DNA of 64,000 bases from an uncultured bacterium (GTDB lineage Bacteria > Cyanobacteriota > Vampirovibrionia > Gastranaerophilales > Gastranaerophilaceae), in the NCBI GenBank assembly GCA_950022695.1, contig CATLLN010000001.1, positions 62,001-126,000 on the forward strand, in the 5' to 3' direction. The translations under genes and the position numbers were made by a program. Positions 37,656-45,920 of the stretch are shown piece by piece (positions within the stretch are counted from its first letter, which is position 1; every line of letters begins with the position of its first letter). The notes under the pieces were generated by a model, which had not been told where the DNA came from, did no database searches, and saw nothing but the letters and a program-made list of their open reading frames with translations.

Positions 37656-37976
37656 ATGGGTATGACTTTTCAACAAAAATTTGGTTTAAGGGTAAAAGAA
37701 ATACGTAAACGTAAAGGGCTAACACAGGAAAAACTTGCAGAAATGATAAGTATAGGCGTGCGTTCGCTTGTTAAAATTGAAACAGGAAACAGTTTCCCTT
37801 CCTGTGATACTCTGGAAAAGTTAATAAAAGCTTTAGATACTTCAAATATAGAAATTTTTGATTTTGAACACCTTCAGCCGGATAATGAATTACGAGAATT
37901 AATTATAGATATGATGGATTCAAATCCTAATAAGATTATTGATATTTATAAAGTTGTAAAAGCTTTGGTTGTTTAG
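37656..37976 (+). CDS. XRE-family transcriptional regulator
   Basis: 106 aa. The helix-turn-helix is GLRVKEIRKRKGLTQEKLAEMISIGVRSLVKIETG. The C-terminal part IFDFEHLQPDNELRELIIDM matches the regulator at 18222 (FFIIEHLQSREEL). It is divergent from the acyltransferase, with the palindrome between them. Its stop overlaps the convergent metallophosphatase stop by four bases. Expected to be translated from a leaderless transcript. Confidence 0.9.
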   Translation: MGMTFQQKFGLRVKEIRKRKGLTQEKLAEMISIGVRSLVKIETGNSFPSCDTLEKLIKALDTSNIEIFDFEHLQPDNELRELIIDMMDSNPNKIIDIYKVVKALVV

Positions 37977-39370
37977 TTTTCATTAATTTTGAAACTCGGA
38001 TATTCGCTGTTGCCGTTAAAGTTTTTTTCAGCTTGTTTCAAGGCTTCATAGAATAATTCGTTTAAAGCAATTTCTTTTCCGTTTTTAATAATTGTTGTTT
38101 TTGGTATGTTTTTTAAAATCTCAAACCCCTGTTCTCCTGCTCCTATATAGCGGTCAATTGTACAGGTGAATTTTTGGTCAGGATTTATCAAGTTTTGATT
38201 TTGGTCAAACAGATTTTTCCCATTTATTGTGATTTGAAGTATTTTATAGGAGTTGTCTTTTTTGTTACCTTGTCCTGTGATTGAGATGTTTTGTGAACAC
38301 TGTAAAAATCTTGAATTTCCGCGATCTTTCAGCATTCTGTATAAAAAAGCATTTTCAAAAACTTTTTTTAAATCTTTTGCAGTAATTTCTATTTTCTCAA
38401 TACTTGTAGAGGCACAAATTACACGTTCTATGTCATATTTTGTTATAAACGGACTATCCTCAAGCCTTAACGGATACATAGTAAACCCCGTAGAATGGAA
38501 CGCTATATCTGTTTCTCCTGCTTCTTTCATTTTATCTGAAATAAATGTTCCTAAAGGACAGGTGTCCGAGTATTTTTTTGTAAGATTTAAAACTCGTTTT
38601 ATTACAGGTTCTTTTAATTTTGTTTTTTGTTCATATTCTATTATCGGGATTTCGAATTCCGGAATAAATTGCAGTGAGTCAGCCGGGATGTTTTCAATTT
38701 TTTCTGATGTGATTTTGCACATTGAACGGGCAAACGAATACGGGTAAAAGATATTTCTTTCAAAATCCGGTTCTATAGGGGAATGTTCGTGCCCGCCTAT
38801 TATTAAATCAATTTGTGGAAATTTATCTTTTAGATTTTTGCTGTATGTGTACCAATGATGATTTAGGACGATAATTTTATCATACTCTTCATTTATTGAT
38901 TCAATTAGTTTTTCGAAGCTTTCTTCTGGCGGCGTTAGTTCATAGCCGAATTTTTTAGCACAAGAATTATTCAGACAAAATCCTGTGATGAGAATTTTTT
39001 CACTGTTTATGTGGATAATTTCGTATTCAGGTACAAATTTTGGTGAAAGATTTGCGCAAACAACTTTTATTCCTGTATTTTGGAATTTTTTAACAGTATC
39101 TTTTAAATACTCAAAATCGGATTTTTTGAATCCAAAGTCGTTGTTGCCTAAAGTTATAACAATCTCTGACTGCGGTAGTAATTCTTTAAGTTTCAAATAC
39201 GCGTTAACAGATAAATCTTTATCGTAAATCCCTTTGAATAAATCACCCGCATCAAGAATTAAAAAAGGTCTATTCAAATCCTTTTCAATGTTATAAATCC
39301 CGCTTAAAAGTCTGCTTAGATTTCTGCTTTCCTGATGAGAATCTGTTATTGCGTAAATATTGGTTGTCAT
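37973..39370 (-). CDS. 5'-nucleotidase/UDP-sugar hydrolase-type metallophosphatase
   Basis: Two-domain enzyme of 465 aa. The N-terminal calcineurin-like domain is IYAITDSHQ (D-x-H-like), ILDAGDLFKG, TLGNNDFGF (GNND), NHHW and GGHEHS (GHE/H). The C-terminal 5'-nucleotidase domain runs from about 250 (GTFISDKMKEAGETDIAFHS, then TCTIDRYIGAGEQGFE). There is no signal peptide, unlike the usual periplasmic members, so it is probably cytoplasmic. Divergent from uvrC. Confidence 0.85.
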   Translation of the reverse strand: MTTNIYAITDSHQESRNLSRLLSGIYNIEKDLNRPFLILDAGDLFKGIYDKDLSVNAYLKLKELLPQSEIVITLGNNDFGFKKSDFEYLKDTVKKFQNTGIKVVCANLSPKFVPEYEIIHINSEKILITGFCLNNSCAKKFGYELTPPEESFEKLIESINEEYDKIIVLNHHWYTYSKNLKDKFPQIDLIIGGHEHSPIEPDFERNIFYPYSFARSMCKITSEKIENIPADSLQFIPEFEIPIIEYEQKTKLKEPVIKRVLNLTKKYSDTCPLGTFISDKMKEAGETDIAFHSTGFTMYPLRLEDSPFITKYDIERVICASTSIEKIEITAKDLKKVFENAFLYRMLKDRGNSRFLQCSQNISITGQGNKKDNSYKILQITINGKNLFDQNQNLINPDQKFTCTIDRYIGAGEQGFEILKNIPKTTIIKNGKEIALNELFYEALKQAEKNFNGNSEYPSFKINEN

Positions 39371-39401
39371 AATATTATAATAGCAGAAAAAATCACCCTA
39401 T

Positions 39402-39409
39402 GGTATAAT
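39402..39409 (+). promoter_or_regulatory. extended -10 promoter of uvrC, leaderless
   Basis: TG-G-TATAAT (39402-39409 covers TGG and the hexamer less the last base run) ends six bases before the ATG at 39416, so transcription should start at the ATG. There is no Shine-Dalgarno sequence. Confidence 0.6.
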
Positions 39410-39415
39410 ATTTGT

Positions 39416-41086
39416 ATGAATGATAAGTTAAAAGAGAGTTTAAAGCTTTTGCCGTCTCTGCCGGGATGTTATATTTATTACAATTCCGACAACGAAATCA
39501 TTTACGTTGGGAAAGCAAAAATTCTAAAACGCCGTGTTATGTCTTATTTTAACCGTAAGCACCATGATAGCGTAAAGGTTAATGTTCTGGTCTCTCAGAT
39601 TGAGCGTTTCGAATATATAATTACAAATACTGAGGTCGAAGCTTTAATTCTTGAAAGTCATTTGATAAAAAAACACAAACCCCGTTATAATATTTTGTTA
39701 AAGGATGACAAAAAATATCCGTATTTTCTTATTACAAATGAGGATTTCCCGAGAATTTCCATTGTCAGAAAACGTAATATGAATCCTGAAAAAGGAAAGT
39801 ATTACGGACCTTACACAGATGTTCGCGCTATGCATTCCACTCTGGATTTTTTAAAAAAGATTTTTCCGCTCAAGCAATGCAAGTCACCTAAGTTTAAATC
39901 TCGTCCGTGTCTTTATTATCATATCGGGAAATGCCTTGCACCTTGTCAAAACCTTGTGACAAGTGAAGAATATAAAGCTATTGTTCACCAGGCGGAACTG
40001 TTTTTATCAGGTAAACAATCTGAACTTATGAAACAGCTTATGGAACAAATTCAAAGATATTCAGATAGCGAACAGTTTGAAAAAGCCGCAAAGCTTCGGG
40101 ATAGCTATCTTGACCTTAAAAAAACACTTGAAAAACAAAAAGTTGTGTATGAAAATACCAAGCTTAATGAAGATATAATATCTTTGGCGCATGAGGACGG
40201 AATCCTTGCTATTGTTATTATGATGATTAGAGAAGGACGGCTTATTGATAAAAAAGATTTTACATATGATGTAGAAGAAGAAGATAAAACCGAATTTTTT
40301 GCTACATTTTTCAAGGAATATTATAATACTTTAACTCTGGAATTTCCTGATAAAATCGTTTCTAATGAATTAGAAGCTGTTGGGGATAAAGCTTTGTATG
40401 AAGAGTGGCTGAATATAATTTCAGGGAAAAAGGTTAAAATAAGTTATGGTAAATCAACACAAGGAAAAGAACTTCAAACATTAGCCGATAAAAACTGCCG
40501 TGTTGTTCTTGATAATGCTAAACTGAAAAAAATGTCCAAAATCAATGAGGATTTTAATAATATTGGTTCTTATCTAAAAGAAAAATTAAAATTAAATAAT
40601 TTCCCGTATCGCATGGAATGTTACGATATTTCGCATATTCAGGGAACAAATACTGTTGCTTCTATGGTAACTTTTGTTAACGGATTAAGTAAAAAATCCG
40701 ATTACCGTAAATTTAAAATTAAAACAACAGAAGGCAAGCCTGATGATTTTCTTTCAATGAAAGAAGTTTTAACCCGAAGACTTTCTCGGCTTGGTGAAAA
40801 AGGTTGGGAAAAACCTGATTTAATAATAATTGACGGTGGCAAAGGGCAGTTATCAAGTGTTATGCAAATTGTTGAGGATATGGGAGTCTCCGGAATAGAT
40901 TTTGTCAGTCTTGCAAAACGTCAGGAAGAAGTTTTCCTTCCTCATCAGTCTAAATCTATTCTTTTACCCAGAGAATCCAGTGCATTGTTTTTAATTCAGC
41001 GTATAAGAGATGAAGCGCACAGGTTTGCAATTACATATCACAGAAAATTAAGATCTAAAAAAGCTGTCAGTCAGGATGGAAAATAA
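39416..41086 (+). CDS. uvrC: excinuclease ABC subunit C, C-terminally short
   Basis: Nuclease subunit of nucleotide excision repair. The GIY-YIG domain is at the N-terminus (GCYIYYNSDNEIIYVGKAK), then a cysteine-rich region (KSRPCLYYHIGKCLAPC), UvrB-binding motif near residue 205 (EQFEKAAKLRDSYLDL), and the RNase H-like domain (MECYDISHIQGTNTVASMV, IIIDGGKGQL, RDEAHRFAITYHRKLRSK). It stops about 10 residues after that domain. The C-terminal helix-hairpin-helix pair of usual UvrC (about 60 residues) is absent. 556 aa. Confidence 0.93.
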   Translation: MNDKLKESLKLLPSLPGCYIYYNSDNEIIYVGKAKILKRRVMSYFNRKHHDSVKVNVLVSQIERFEYIITNTEVEALILESHLIKKHKPRYNILLKDDKKYPYFLITNEDFPRISIVRKRNMNPEKGKYYGPYTDVRAMHSTLDFLKKIFPLKQCKSPKFKSRPCLYYHIGKCLAPCQNLVTSEEYKAIVHQAELFLSGKQSELMKQLMEQIQRYSDSEQFEKAAKLRDSYLDLKKTLEKQKVVYENTKLNEDIISLAHEDGILAIVIMMIREGRLIDKKDFTYDVEEEDKTEFFATFFKEYYNTLTLEFPDKIVSNELEAVGDKALYEEWLNIISGKKVKISYGKSTQGKELQTLADKNCRVVLDNAKLKKMSKINEDFNNIGSYLKEKLKLNNFPYRMECYDISHIQGTNTVASMVTFVNGLSKKSDYRKFKIKTTEGKPDDFLSMKEVLTRRLSRLGEKGWEKPDLIIIDGGKGQLSSVMQIVEDMGVSGIDFVSLAKRQEEVFLPHQSKSILLPRESSALFLIQRIRDEAHRFAITYHRKLRSKKAVSQDGK

Positions 41087-41087
41087 A

Positions 41088-41681
41088 TTATTTTCTTCGG
41101 AACATTGATTTTAGCATATCTTTTAAGCCTTTTTTAACCTGTTCAACTGTTTCCGGTTCATCTTCTACTGTTTCATCAACAGCAGATTCATGATGAAGAC
41201 TTTCTTCTACTGATAATAATTCTTCGTTATCTTCGTTTTCACTTTCGGTTTCTTCAGCTATTGGCATTGCAGCATTTAAAAGTTCTCTGAATTTTTGTTT
41301 GCGCGGTGTATCTTTTTTGGCTTCATCAGCTTCACCTTCAAGAGCGATTGCTTTATTTTCATCTTCAGCTTTAATTAAATCACTCATCGCAATATAAATT
41401 TCTCTCAAATCAGATATTACAGAATTGCCTCCAAGCCATTTTTTTACATATCTTTCATCCGGTCCGAGGCTGCCATCGGTTTTTGTACCTTCTTTGATGT
41501 TAAAAGTTGCTTCTGAAATCCCAATTGAGATAATAACATTAGGATAATGGAGTTTTGTTTCCATTCTTAATTTAAGGTTATTATATTTTGTTATGTTCAT
41601 GTTTGTAGAGTTGTGAGCATCTTGCTGGGATTTAATAATATATTGCTGTAACTTTGTGACAAGCTCGTGAAGTGTTTTCAT
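41088..41681 (-). CDS. uncharacterised protein, paralogue of the 41696 gene
   Basis: 197 aa, not recognised. The N-terminal half contains YNNLKLRMETKLHYPNVIIS, IGISEATFNIKEGTKTDGSLG and PDERYVKKWLGGNS. The C-terminal half is very acidic (ESENEDNEELLSVEESLHHE) and ends in a basic stretch. The same core is in the next upstream gene, so the two are tandem duplicates with different tails. It is last in the operon that starts with rimI. Confidence 0.75.
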   Translation of the reverse strand: MKTLHELVTKLQQYIIKSQQDAHNSTNMNITKYNNLKLRMETKLHYPNVIISIGISEATFNIKEGTKTDGSLGPDERYVKKWLGGNSVISDLREIYIAMSDLIKAEDENKAIALEGEADEAKKDTPRKQKFRELLNAAMPIAEETESENEDNEELLSVEESLHHESAVDETVEDEPETVEQVKKGLKDMLKSMFRRK

Positions 41682-41695
41682 ATATGAATCCTTAT

Positions 41696-42208
41696 TTACT
41701 TATTATTATCTATATCTTTTTTGAAACCTTTTAACCTGTTTCTTTTTCTTTGAAGTTCTTCTTGTTTAGTTGTATTGATACCTGTACCTGTCATATCAAC
41801 GCCTAAGTCTACATTTGCAGATTCTGCCCGTCTTAATCTTGCTGCAGCTGATGCTTTTTTATTAAGATCTTCGGATTCTTCGGCGGTTATGGCATCTTTT
41901 AATAATTTCCAGTGGCTCATTAATTCTTTATTGATGTTATTTCTTTCAATCCATCTTTTTACATAACCGTCTTCCGGTCCTAAGCCGCCTTCCATTTTCT
42001 TCCCGTCAATTATTGAAAAAACAGCTTCAGATATGCCTACAGTAACAAAAATATGTGGGTCAGAAAATGCTCTGGGATCCATAGATACTTTCAGGTTGTT
42101 ATATCTGTATGCATGACTTTTTGCATCCCCGTATTTGTCTGACATTGCTTTTATTAAAAATTCAATTAATGAATTATCAAATTTTGAAATGGATCTAGTT
42201 CTTGCCAT
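41696..42208 (-). CDS. uncharacterised protein, paralogue of the 41088 gene
   Basis: 170 aa, not recognised. The core YNNLKVSMDPRAFSDPHIFV, TVGISEAVFSIIDGKKMEGG and LGPEDGYVKRWIERNN matches the downstream gene at the same relative positions. The C-terminus is basic and helical (RKRNRLKGFKKDIDNNK). It lies 12 bases after the UPF0210 gene, in an operon with a stator-like ion channel pair. Confidence 0.75.
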   Translation of the reverse strand: MARTRSISKFDNSLIEFLIKAMSDKYGDAKSHAYRYNNLKVSMDPRAFSDPHIFVTVGISEAVFSIIDGKKMEGGLGPEDGYVKRWIERNNINKELMSHWKLLKDAITAEESEDLNKKASAAARLRRAESANVDLGVDMTGTGINTTKQEELQRKRNRLKGFKKDIDNNK

Positions 42209-42220
42209 TTTTATTTCCTT

Positions 42221-43582
42221 TTAGTTATTAAGACTGTGTATTGGTGCAGGAATTCTGCCGCCGCGTTGTACAAAAGTTGCTGATGAAAGTTCATTTACAG
42301 GCATAATTGGAGCTTCTCCGAGAAGTCCGCCGTATGAAATTCTATCGCCGACATCTTTTCCGTAGGCAGGAATAATTCTTACCGCGGTTGTTTTTTTGTT
42401 AATCATACCAATTGCCATTTCATCTGCTATTATACCTGCAATTGTGCTTGCCGGAGTTTTACCCGGGATTGCAATCATATCAAGACCTACAGAACAAACA
42501 GATGTCATTGCTTCAAGTTTATCAAAGACAAGATATCCTTTTGTTGCGGCTTCAATCATTCCGGCATCTTCCGATACTGGAATAAATGCTCCTGATAATC
42601 CCCCAACGTGTGAACTTGCCATAATTCCGCCTTTTTTTACCGCATCATTAAGCATTGCTAAAGCGGCTGTAGTGCCGTGAGCTCCTGCGTGCTCCAAGCC
42701 CATTGCCTGAAAAATCCCTGCAACACTATCTCCGGGAGCCGGTGTTGGTGCTAAAGAAAGATCAATTACACCAAATGGTATGTCAAGTTTTTTAGCAAGT
42801 TTTCTTCCGACCAGTTCACCGGTTGAAGTTATTTTATATGCAATTTCTTTAATTTTGTTTGCCAGTTCGCTCATATCTGCATCTTTTGGTAATGCTTCGA
42901 CTGCGGCTCTTACAACACCCGGACCTGAAACTCCGACGTTTAATGCGCATTCAGGTTCTCCCATTCCGCAAAAAGCACCTGCCATAAACGGATTATCTCC
43001 CGGCACATTACAAAATACTACAAGTTTTGCCGCACCTATCCCGTCGCGATCGGCTGTAATTTCTGCAGCCTTTTTAATGATTTCAGACATCTTTAAAACA
43101 GCATCCATATTTATTCCGGCTTTTGAAGTCGCCAGATTAACTGATGAACAAACTCTTTCAGTTTGAGCTAAAGCTTCTGGAATACTTTCTATTAAAAGTT
43201 TATCGCCTTTAGTACAGCCTTTTTCAACCAGTGCTGAAAAGCCGCCGATAAAGTTTACTCCGACTTCTTCTGCCGCTTTATCAAGAGTTTTTGCTATTTT
43301 TACATAATCAGGATTTTTGCAGGATTCTCCGATAAATGAAATTGGAGTAACTGCGATTCTTTTATTAATAATCGGTATAGAATACTCGTCAGCAAGTTCA
43401 TCTGCATATTCTACAAGATTTTTTGCATATTTTTTTATCTTGTTATAAATGTTTTCGCAAACTGTATCAATATCTTCTGCAATACAATCTCTTAAGCTCA
43501 AAGCTAATGTAACTGTTCTGATATCAAGGTTGTACAGTTTAATCATATTTATGGTTTCTATTATATTATTTTCATCTAGCAT
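42221..43582 (-). CDS. UPF0210/PFL-family protein
   Basis: 453 aa. The family is recognised by [61 protein letters not shown] and [15 protein letters not shown]. It is a conserved, uncharacterised enzyme-like family of cytoplasmic proteins. It starts three bases after the ZorB-like stop, so it is in one operon with it. Confidence 0.9.
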
Positions 43583-43585
43583 AAT

Positions 43586-44281
43586 TTAATCTTTCTTTAA
43601 TCCTAGGGCTGTCGATACATTCCAATCTTTGACTTTTAATTTTAACTCAACACGGCGGCTTTTGTCAAAATCTTCAATTCCGTTAACTAAGATTGGTTCA
43701 TTAAAACTTTTACCTTCTACAACGATAATTTTTCTAAATTGTTCAGAATATTTTTTATCATAATTTGTTTTAAAAATGTACTTTGCAACTGCATTAGCAC
43801 GTTTTAAGCTTAAATCCATATTGCGTAAGAACTGTTCATCTTTAGAGTTTATGCCTGCAAACATCTGAGAATCTGTGTGACCTTGAATGTAAATATACTG
43901 AATTTGTTCAGCCAGTTCCTTATCTGCAAAGATTGAATTTATATAAATCGGAGCAACTTTGTCCAAAAGTTTTTTCCCATTTTCAGAAAGTTCCCAGCTG
44001 GAGAGTTCAAAAAGTTCTACATCCGAGATTTTTAAGTCTCCTGTCATTTTATCAATATCAACCTGAATATTTTCTTTCTCAAGTTCACTGCTGATTTTTT
44101 CAGAAACTTCCATCTGAACCTTTTGCTGTTGAACAGATTGCTGTGAAAATCCTGTCATCGCAAGCACAAACAGTGTAATAAAAATAATTGCCAAACCTAA
44201 TAAAAGGTCTGCCATTGTTACCCAGGAGATATTACCTTCCGAATCTGAATTATTCTGTTGTGCTCTGAATTTTATACCCAT
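43586..44281 (-). CDS. ZorB/MotB-like OmpA-domain protein
   Basis: 231 aa. A single N-terminal membrane segment holds the stator-type aspartate (VTMADLLLGLAIIFITLFVL). A linker follows, then a peptidoglycan-binding OmpA/MotB domain (SSWELSENGKKLLDKVAPIY, IQGHTDSQMF, RANAVAKYIF, SRRVELKLK). With the neighbouring channel gene it forms a proton-driven stator pair. ZorB of Zorya anti-phage systems has this layout, but no ZorC, D or E genes are nearby. MotB of a flagellar motor is unlikely without flagellar genes. Confidence 0.75.
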   Translation of the reverse strand: MGIKFRAQQNNSDSEGNISWVTMADLLLGLAIIFITLFVLAMTGFSQQSVQQQKVQMEVSEKISSELEKENIQVDIDKMTGDLKISDVELFELSSWELSENGKKLLDKVAPIYINSIFADKELAEQIQYIYIQGHTDSQMFAGINSKDEQFLRNMDLSLKRANAVAKYIFKTNYDKKYSEQFRKIIVVEGKSFNEPILVNGIEDFDKSRRVELKLKVKDWNVSTALGLKKD

Positions 44282-44290
44282 TATTATCCT

Positions 44291-45199
44291 TTAAAATAAC
44301 TCATCCACAACATCTGCGGCTTTCTTTTCTTTCATTGATTCTTTGAGCTGTTTATTAAGTTGATTTAACCCAAAAATCAGGTTTTCAAGATATGGAACAA
44401 GGTTTGTTGCCATACTTGAGTTAAATGCTGTTTTAAATTGTACAGGAATTTCTGTTACAAGGTTGTTTGAGGTGTTGTTTTGAACTTTGGATTCTCTTAA
44501 AAGTTCATATAAGAATTTTTCAGCTGAAATACTTGCAAACAATCCGCCCATAATTTCTTGAATTCTTATCATTGGAGTTTTGCAAAGTTTGTTGTACATG
44601 ATTCTTTCAAGCATCAAATATATAAGTGAAGAACCAACCGCAATAACAGATACTAATGCTGCAGTCTGCATACTTGTCATAAAGCTTGAAACAGATGCGA
44701 TTGTTTTTTCCTGAGTTGAAAAATCAATTTTTCCGAATGCAATTGCAATATTTAAAAAAGTGAACAACGGACCAAAACCTGTTAAAATTGTCGGTATTGT
44801 TTGAATCATTTTGAAATTGAATTTTGATGTAACAAGTGTTTCTTCGTTGAAATAATACAAAGGGTCAGATGTTGTTTGAACATTTTGAACTGTTGATGAT
44901 ATATCTTGATATTTAACGTTGTCGCTGCCGGATTTCAGTGCGATGGATTCAGAAAACACAAGAGTGTTTTTAAATTCAATCCAGGCGGCTGAAACATAAG
45001 GATTCTGGCTCATCCAGGTATCAATTTCTTTGAATCTGAAGTTTAAGTCGTTTTTCTTAAAGCCTTCCATGTAATTTATTATTAACTGAAGATTTTTTCC
45101 TGTTGCCAGATACTTTGAAAAACAATAAATTGTAGAAGAGATAAATACTACCACTACAATCAAAATCGGTATATCTGAAATAACATTTAAAAAGTTCAT
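44291..45199 (-). CDS. ZorA/MotA-like proton channel protein
   Basis: 302 aa. The membrane segments are at about residues 7-30 (IPILIVVVVFISSTIYCF) and in IPTILTGFGPLFTFLNIAIA plus AALVSVIAVGSSLIYLML, the usual MotA/TolQ/ExbB core. A basic/helical cytoplasmic tail follows. The short length lacks the very long tail helix of defence ZorA. The ATG at 45199 has AAGGAAGG upstream and is better than the ATG at 45250. Paired with the OmpA-domain gene ten bases downstream. Confidence 0.7.
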   Translation of the reverse strand: MNFLNVISDIPILIVVVVFISSTIYCFSKYLATGKNLQLIINYMEGFKKNDLNFRFKEIDTWMSQNPYVSAAWIEFKNTLVFSESIALKSGSDNVKYQDISSTVQNVQTTSDPLYYFNEETLVTSKFNFKMIQTIPTILTGFGPLFTFLNIAIAFGKIDFSTQEKTIASVSSFMTSMQTAALVSVIAVGSSLIYLMLERIMYNKLCKTPMIRIQEIMGGLFASISAEKFLYELLRESKVQNNTSNNLVTEIPVQFKTAFNSSMATNLVPYLENLIFGLNQLNKQLKESMKEKKAADVVDELF

Positions 45200-45254
45200 A
45201 AATTCACCTTCCTTGACTGTTATTGTAGCATAGAAAGCATTAACTGGCAATAAG

Positions 45255-45920
45255 TTAGTCTATAATGAACTTTAAGCCTTTGTGTAAATATTTCCCGATA
45301 AGGATTAATACAAAACTTACAATCAGGTCGTATATTATTTTTAAACCGCTTTGAGCTTCGATCCAACCGGAAATAAAAGTTCCGCCTGCGTGTTTTATCA
45401 ACGCAATAACAATCATATATAGGATTCCAAGGATATGGATTGTTAATACACCTGTTGTTGCCGCAAGAATCATATTTTTAAATGAATATTTATTGCTTAA
45501 AAATCTTCCTGCTATCAATACAGCCGGAATGTATGCCAGGATGTAGCCAAATCCATATTGAGCCAAATATTTTATTCCGCCGCCAAGTCCGAACACTGGA
45601 GCTAAAAATAAACCAATTATTATATAAAGCATAATACTTGTTAGTGAAAGCTTGCGGCCTAAAACAGAACAAACAAACATTACTATAGGTATCTGCGGAA
45701 TTAAAAAGAAACTGTATACAAAATCTTCTGCTGACAATACTTTGTTAGAGAAGATGTCTGGCGGAATTATGTAATGTCTGATATTAAAATTTATAAAAGT
45801 TGAGCCTATAATTATTAAAGTGCAAAAAAAGATTGCGGCAAGATTAATAAGAGGGATTTTTATCCTTCTTTTATTTCTGTCTATCCGTTTCATTTTTGGT
45901 ATTAAAATATCCTGGTTCAT
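45255..45920 (-). CDS. BioY-like substrate-capture membrane protein
   Basis: 221 aa with about six membrane segments. Conserved-looking BioY features are SLTSIMLYIIIGLFLAPVFG, GLGGGIKYLAQYGFGYILAY and IPAVLIAGRFL. BioY is the S component that captures biotin for ECF transporters. The cell also has biotin synthesis genes here, so uptake and synthesis may coexist. The ATG overlaps the rimI stop by four bases. Substrate is inferred. Confidence 0.65.
   Translation of the reverse strand: MNQDILIPKMKRIDRNKRRIKIPLINLAAIFFCTLIIIGSTFINFNIRHYIIPPDIFSNKVLSAEDFVYSFFLIPQIPIVMFVCSVLGRKLSLTSIMLYIIIGLFLAPVFGLGGGIKYLAQYGFGYILAYIPAVLIAGRFLSNKYSFKNMILAATTGVLTIHILGILYMIVIALIKHAGGTFISGWIEAQSGLKIIYDLIVSFVLILIGKYLHKGLKFIID

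Follow-up and report, generated by a model that had tools for sequence, protein, structure and literature searches.

A core ZorAB-type motor pair of Gastranaerophilales and its evolutionary link to Dzr1, a zinc-ribbon, cyclase-fold, STAND and TPR protein

Background

To our knowledge, ZorAB motors have so far been known only within phage defence. The closest described systems are the ZorAB complexes of Zorya type I (E. coli, PDB 8QYD/8QYK; Shewanella ANA-3) and type II (Sulfuricurvum kujiense, PDB 8VVI); features are also shared with the flagellar stator MotAB, which has a MotB-like axle with an OmpA domain and a stator aspartate. In Zorya types I and II the tail of ZorA is required for defence (PMC11890865); in type I this tail comprises roughly 460 aa or more, and the E. 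coli ZorA chain is 729 aa long. A literature search limited to open-access papers, in which absence is no proof, returned no paper joining Zorya with the Gastranaerophilales.

The window (the whole stretch of DNA analysed, 64,000 nucleotides from an uncultured member of this order of gut bacteria) contains a gene pair which an earlier note had described as an orphan ZorA/ZorB-like stator pair in a conserved-looking operon.

Results and discussion

The pair and its surroundings comprise the following features, with positions given for the window:

45255-45920, minus strand: BioY-family gene upstream of zorA, outside the system
45222-45250, minus strand: zorAB promoter-like site, TTGCCA-17-TACAAT with an extended -10 (TG), between bioY and zorA
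44291-45199, minus strand: ZorA-like stator subunit, 302 aa, ATG start (open reading frame and profile matches)
44759-44761, minus strand: codon of ZorA Thr147, aligned with the Thr at the same position of E. coli ZorA
44648-44650, minus strand: codon of ZorA Ser184, aligned with a Ser of E. coli ZorA
44294-44314, minus strand: DVVDELF (D-x-[VI]-D-x-[LI]-F), the C-terminal motif with which the ZorA tail ends, candidate docking motif
43586-44281, minus strand: ZorB-like subunit, 231 aa, with stator Asp25 in its single TM helix and an OmpA-type peptidoglycan-binding domain
44207-44209, minus strand: codon of the ZorB stator aspartate D25 (in MADLLLG), from the alignment
43871-43882, minus strand: ZorB GHTD motif, residues 134-137, in the peptidoglycan-binding domain, from the alignment
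42221-43582, minus strand: UPF0210 (DUF711) protein, conserved housekeeping neighbour, no phyletic partner
41696-42208, minus strand: small paralogue 1 (PAR), frequent, non-obligate neighbour with very weak DUF4160/DhiT similarity
41088-41681, minus strand: small paralogue 2 (PAR)

The description of the two genes as a ZorA/ZorB-like stator pair proved sound. ZorA matches the ZorA1 models of PADLOC (1.6e-19) and NCBIfam (1.1e-17), and ZorB matches PADLOC ZorB1 along residues 6-223 (7.5e-48) as well as Pfam OmpA (E 6.4e-8). Family profiles run against PDB sequences retrieved E. coli ZorA at 1.9e-17, with the Thr147 and Ser184 positions identical, and Sulfuricurvum ZorB at 7.6e-21 as the best solved match for ZorB; the closest solved relatives of the pair are ZorAB complexes. 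Hydrophobic segments of ZorA lie near residues 1-33, 135-156 and 170-201. In an alignment of 19 relatives, Thr147 and Ser184 of ZorA are invariant, as are D25 and GHTD of ZorB, in agreement with the stator aspartate and GHTD motif noted previously in the MotB/OmpA-like partner. Pfam MotA_ExbB gave no match to ZorA, and the Pfam match of ZorB was to OmpA, with none to ExbD, which rules out a TolQR/ExbBD identity; a placement with TolQ/ExbB-TolR, named in the earlier note as one outcome that would refute its reading, is thus not what the profiles indicate. Sequence comparison establishes kinship with ZorAB, together with the stator aspartate, polar channel residues, a peptidoglycan-binding fold and a short tail. 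Judged by its residues, the pair is a member of a wider ZorAB-type motor family, having a single-TM axle with an aspartate, the channel Thr/Ser and an OmpA-type domain, and by homology a 5:2 stoichiometry and ion-driven rotation would be expected.

The pair shares with Zorya type I the ZorA Thr147/Ser184 positions, the ZorB stator aspartate and the OmpA-type peptidoglycan domain, and has its best profile and PDB matches there. In contrast to type I, the ZorA tail, correctly noted before as short, is only about 85 aa long, and ZorA measures 292-309 aa in 61 full-length loci; the rod-like tail required by Zorya defence is therefore absent here. With type II it shares the ZorB profile match given above, whereas ZorA best matches the type I model, the tail is shorter and no ZorE is linked. 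Indeed, no ZorC/ZorD, ZorE or ZorF/ZorG was found among the neighbours of zorAB, and the ZorC marker EH_Signature occurs in 1 of 192 genomes of the order (G045), beside a different, long-tailed ZorA, so that the pair can rightly be called an orphan of ZorC/D/E. Its scores are below the NCBIfam equivalog/subfamily cut-offs (63.7 against 750 and 59.4 against 100 bits for ZorA; 58 and 51 against 400 bits for ZorB). The short tail, the absence of effectors and the scores below cut-off rule out Zorya proper.

Other ZorAB pairs were also encountered. The locus in G045 (L077:3223-6870; G045:C200) is genuinely Zorya-like, with a ZorA of 542 aa, a ZorB of 220 aa and the EH_Signature (ZorC) protein; carrying true Zorya plus the housekeeping ZorAB plus Dzr1 (see below), this genome represents a natural control. 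Family f3 (L078:97-2828, L079, L093) contains a type II-like pair (NCBIfam ZorB2 3e-63, ZorA2 3e-37), after which an unknown protein of 275 aa is encoded; this pair falls outside the housekeeping family. Finally, a second, distant ZorB (307 aa) and ZorA (387 aa) are located near an H2TH-domain protein at L099:4911-6985 (G011:C61).

At the locus itself rimI, bioY, zorA, zorB, the UPF0210 gene and the two PAR genes follow each other on one strand with small gaps, and a convergent uvrC comes next. The order rimI-bioY-zorA-zorB-UPF0210-PAR-uvrC is kept throughout the genus, as the earlier note required of a conserved neighbourhood, and its recurrence both within the genus and outside it is far beyond chance; in more distant relatives bioY is gone from the neighbourhood of zorAB. 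Directly upstream of zorA, most loci contain TTGCC-N17/18-TGnTAnAAT; our scan, whose 65 upstream stretches included some that were cut or mis-registered, matched it in 43. This conserved extended -10 promoter-like site between bioY and zorA indicates that zorAB probably has a transcript of its own. The conserved-looking operon therefore stands as regards order, single strand and tiny gaps, but bioY is probably set apart from it. Further downstream, the 5' ends of a 5'-nucleotidase-like gene (37973-39370, minus strand) and uvrC (39335-41086, plus strand) overlap.

ZorA was detected in 138 of the 192 sampled genomes of the order, in one copy each except in G045, whose second copy is the genuine Zorya, distinct from the housekeeping pair. 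A further sample of class genomes outside the families of this order yielded no ZorA. On a species tree of ribosomal proteins and RpoA, the genera without ZorAB make up three distinct clades of the family; a further one is found in f4, which is split. zorAB is a vertically inherited, fixed housekeeping (core) pair in Gastranaerophilales.

A gene that does co-vary with this pair is located elsewhere in the genome. Dzr1, a zinc-ribbon / cyclase-fold / STAND / TPR protein of 1,193 aa, is represented in the genome of the window by a strong profile match at G000:C1:209452-212931, about 83 kb past the window end. Counting as presence a match with E<1e-200 or a diverged orthologue placed by the tree (g42), Dzr1 occurs in 137 of 138 genomes with ZorAB and in 1 of 54 without. 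In the deep lineages f4, f5, g30, g35 and g46, zorA is divergently adjacent to dzr1 (product 1,094-1,175 aa); in the genus of the window's genome the two are unlinked and both retained. In a tree of 40 sequences the Dzr1 clade contains only genomes with ZorAB (bootstrap 98-100), while the clade of its paralogue Dzr2 includes both groups. Pagel's test on a 60-genome species tree of ribosomal proteins and RpoA, some nodes of which are weakly supported (34-72), favoured the correlated model for ZorAB and Dzr1 (LR 29, p 8e-6), a result which depends on only about four to five changes. Because zorA and dzr1 are adjacent in f4, and perhaps were so in the ancestor of the large clade, some of the co-losses may be single deletions. 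The evolutionary link between ZorAB and Dzr1 is nevertheless well supported.

There are two exceptions to this pattern. G102, a metagenome-assembled genome (MAG), has ZorAB without Dzr1, which may be a gap, and G032 has Dzr1 without ZorAB. We do not regard the latter as a counter-example: ZorA, PAR and UPF0210 are all missing together from this 220-contig MAG, and an assembly gap is therefore likelier. The Dzr1 gene of G032 (L126:6066-9542; G032:C106) is split by one in-frame TAA, due to either gene decay or assembly error. A strongly diverged Dzr1 that lacks the zinc ribbon was found in genus g42 (L127:4169-7282; G174), where ZorAB is still present. In the window's genome a glgA-type glycogen synthase gene (L111:9074-10525) directly follows dzr1, and a similarly sized gene (about 480-520 aa) also does so in most relatives in which dzr1 is not beside zorA.

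In a predicted structure of the copy from the window's genome (pLDDT 81.8), Dzr1 consists of zinc ribbons (residues 1-70; Pfam DZR), a class III cyclase fold (residues 75-264; CyaB, Z 17.1, 171 aligned, rmsd 2.8), a STAND core (residues 336-770; compared over residues 336-787, Z was 16.3 for MalT and 16.0 for Apaf-1) and, at about residues 720-1144, a TPR array; Foldseek matches include Avs3 (8dgc), and the paralogue Dzr2 matches AAA_16 and TPR. A cyclase fold, a STAND core and a TPR array are thus shared with MalT, Avs and Apaf-1 (STAND and TPR) and with class III cyclase-AAA-TPR proteins. Dzr1 differs from these in its N-terminal zinc ribbons, in its association with ZorAB and in the absence of both Walker A and conserved cyclase metal aspartates. 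Walker A is lost in the Dzr1 orthologues, being partly retained in G045 and G131, and is present in most paralogues; the candidate positions of the cyclase metal aspartates, aligned by eye, hold D in 9/22 and 2/22 sequences. With both sites degraded, Dzr1 is most likely a pseudo-enzyme scaffold. A search for nuclease or other effector domains in Dzr1 found none.

We propose, with moderate confidence, that the pair is a peptidoglycan-anchored ion motor driving a STAND hub devoid of catalytic activity, and that it probably serves surveillance or growth of the envelope. ZorB would take hold of peptidoglycan that comes within its reach, the flow of ions past D25 of ZorB would turn or re-pose the ZorA ring, and the short ZorA tail ending in D-x-V-D-x-L-F would dock cytoplasmic Dzr1, with the status of peptidoglycan or envelope serving as input to the motor. 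In STAND proteins, ATP normally governs the change between a closed and an open state; as the P-loop is lost in Dzr1, the motor and not ATP would set its state, which the TPR and zinc-ribbon parts of Dzr1 would pass on to clients. The end of the ZorA tail is a putative docking motif, conserved in most lineages (it is missing in f5, L075, and g42, L069), and as it is found in PAR-less lineages too, Dzr1 is a better candidate for docking than PAR. A physical contact between ZorA and Dzr1 is a guess on our part, as is the purpose of the motor; the peptidoglycan-binding ZorB suggests that the process would concern the envelope. Rather than phage defence or flagellar rotation, the motor would most likely serve to survey or control the growth of envelope or peptidoglycan. 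The specific notion that a non-defence ZorAB exerts mechanical control over a pseudo-STAND/pseudo-cyclase hub, with the ATP switch replaced by ion flow at the peptidoglycan, is tentative and on the doubtful side.

It seems unlikely that we are dealing with an anti-phage system derived from Zorya, with the STAND-TPR protein Dzr1 acting as its sensor or effector in place of ZorC/D/E. The nearest relatives of the pair are Zorya ZorAB, and STAND-TPR folds are common to Avs defence proteins such as the Avs3 matched here. However, defence systems of the Zorya type are sporadic, whereas this single-copy core gene has near-constant synteny between the housekeeping genes rimI and uvrC and is not patchy; Dzr1 has neither a P-loop nor a detected effector domain; the ZorA tail is short even though defence by Zorya I and II depends on it (PMC11890865); and G045 retains a true Zorya besides its housekeeping pair. 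The previous suspicion that the pair is probably not a defence system is thus supported by its core status, short tail and lack of linked effectors.

The earlier note had considered the two PAR paralogues as working partners, which would make ZorAB-PAR the machine, and this we likewise find improbable. PAR adjoins ZorAB even where UPF0210 is missing (L051, L055, L083, L084, L089), and strong PAR matches occur only in genomes with ZorAB. Yet the correlated-evolution test for PAR and ZorAB on the 60-genome species tree gave p 0.98, seven genera with ZorAB (g19, g25, g29, g37, g39, g42, g44) lack PAR, and weak PAR relatives persist in genera without ZorAB; moreover, g30/g31 (L072, L074) keep PAR with UPF0210 while ZorAB is elsewhere. 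All pairings are seen: ZorAB-PAR without UPF0210, UPF0210-PAR with ZorAB elsewhere, and ZorAB-UPF0210 without PAR. This absent phyletic coupling rules out PAR as an obligate partner, and the proposal of the earlier note is not supported. UPF0210 is ruled out as a component as well; it is near-universal with or without ZorAB (167/192 genomes, including the genera lacking ZorAB), and its evolution is not correlated with ZorAB (p 0.65). The scores of PAR are below the DUF4160 / DhiT family cut-offs (16.8/23 bits and 19.8/100 bits), Foldseek gave no confident match for its fold (best E 0.33), the best VIA-align score against solved structures (Z 6.5) is within background, and the PAR and Dzr1 profiles had no useful match among PDB sequences. 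Weak PAR relatives beside tgt/yajC-type genes were seen in genera without ZorAB (L080, L100, L101, L102).

Rather improbable is a generic Tol/Ton/gliding-like energiser of a process in the periplasm or outer membrane for which a cytoplasmic partner would be of no importance. The organisms are diderm (PMC4040986) and the OmpA-type domain of ZorB is consistent with peptidoglycan anchoring, but ZorB is built to the MotB/ZorB design of an anchored axle, which directs force to the cytoplasm, and has no TolR/ExbD fold; the genome has a separate TolQ/ExbB-type protein, and Dzr1, which has no evident export signal, co-varies with ZorAB. Finally, despite the remote MotAB kinship and the flagella of some Gastranaerophilales (PMC4040986), a stator for a flagellum or flagellar remnant can practically be dismissed: ZorA differs from MotA in lacking the Pfam match, FliG (FliG_C) was not found in the window's own genome or any sampled genome of the genus, ZorAB occurs with and without FliG, and FliG also occurs without ZorAB.

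Conclusions

That ZorAB is a core pair here, inherited vertically and accompanied by an obligate partner of its own, implies another job for this type of motor, and the joint inheritance with Dzr1, whose own ATP-binding site is lost, suggests a new use of it. ZorAB now has a named candidate partner in Dzr1. Tools for finding defence systems will label such housekeeping genes as Zorya. As the P-loop was lost in the motor-associated STAND protein and not in its paralogues, the idea that the motor replaces nucleotide switching is directly testable. If true, signalling from the envelope to the cytoplasm would have a new class of machine in the pair and Dzr1, and Zorya would seem to have had a housekeeping branch in its past.
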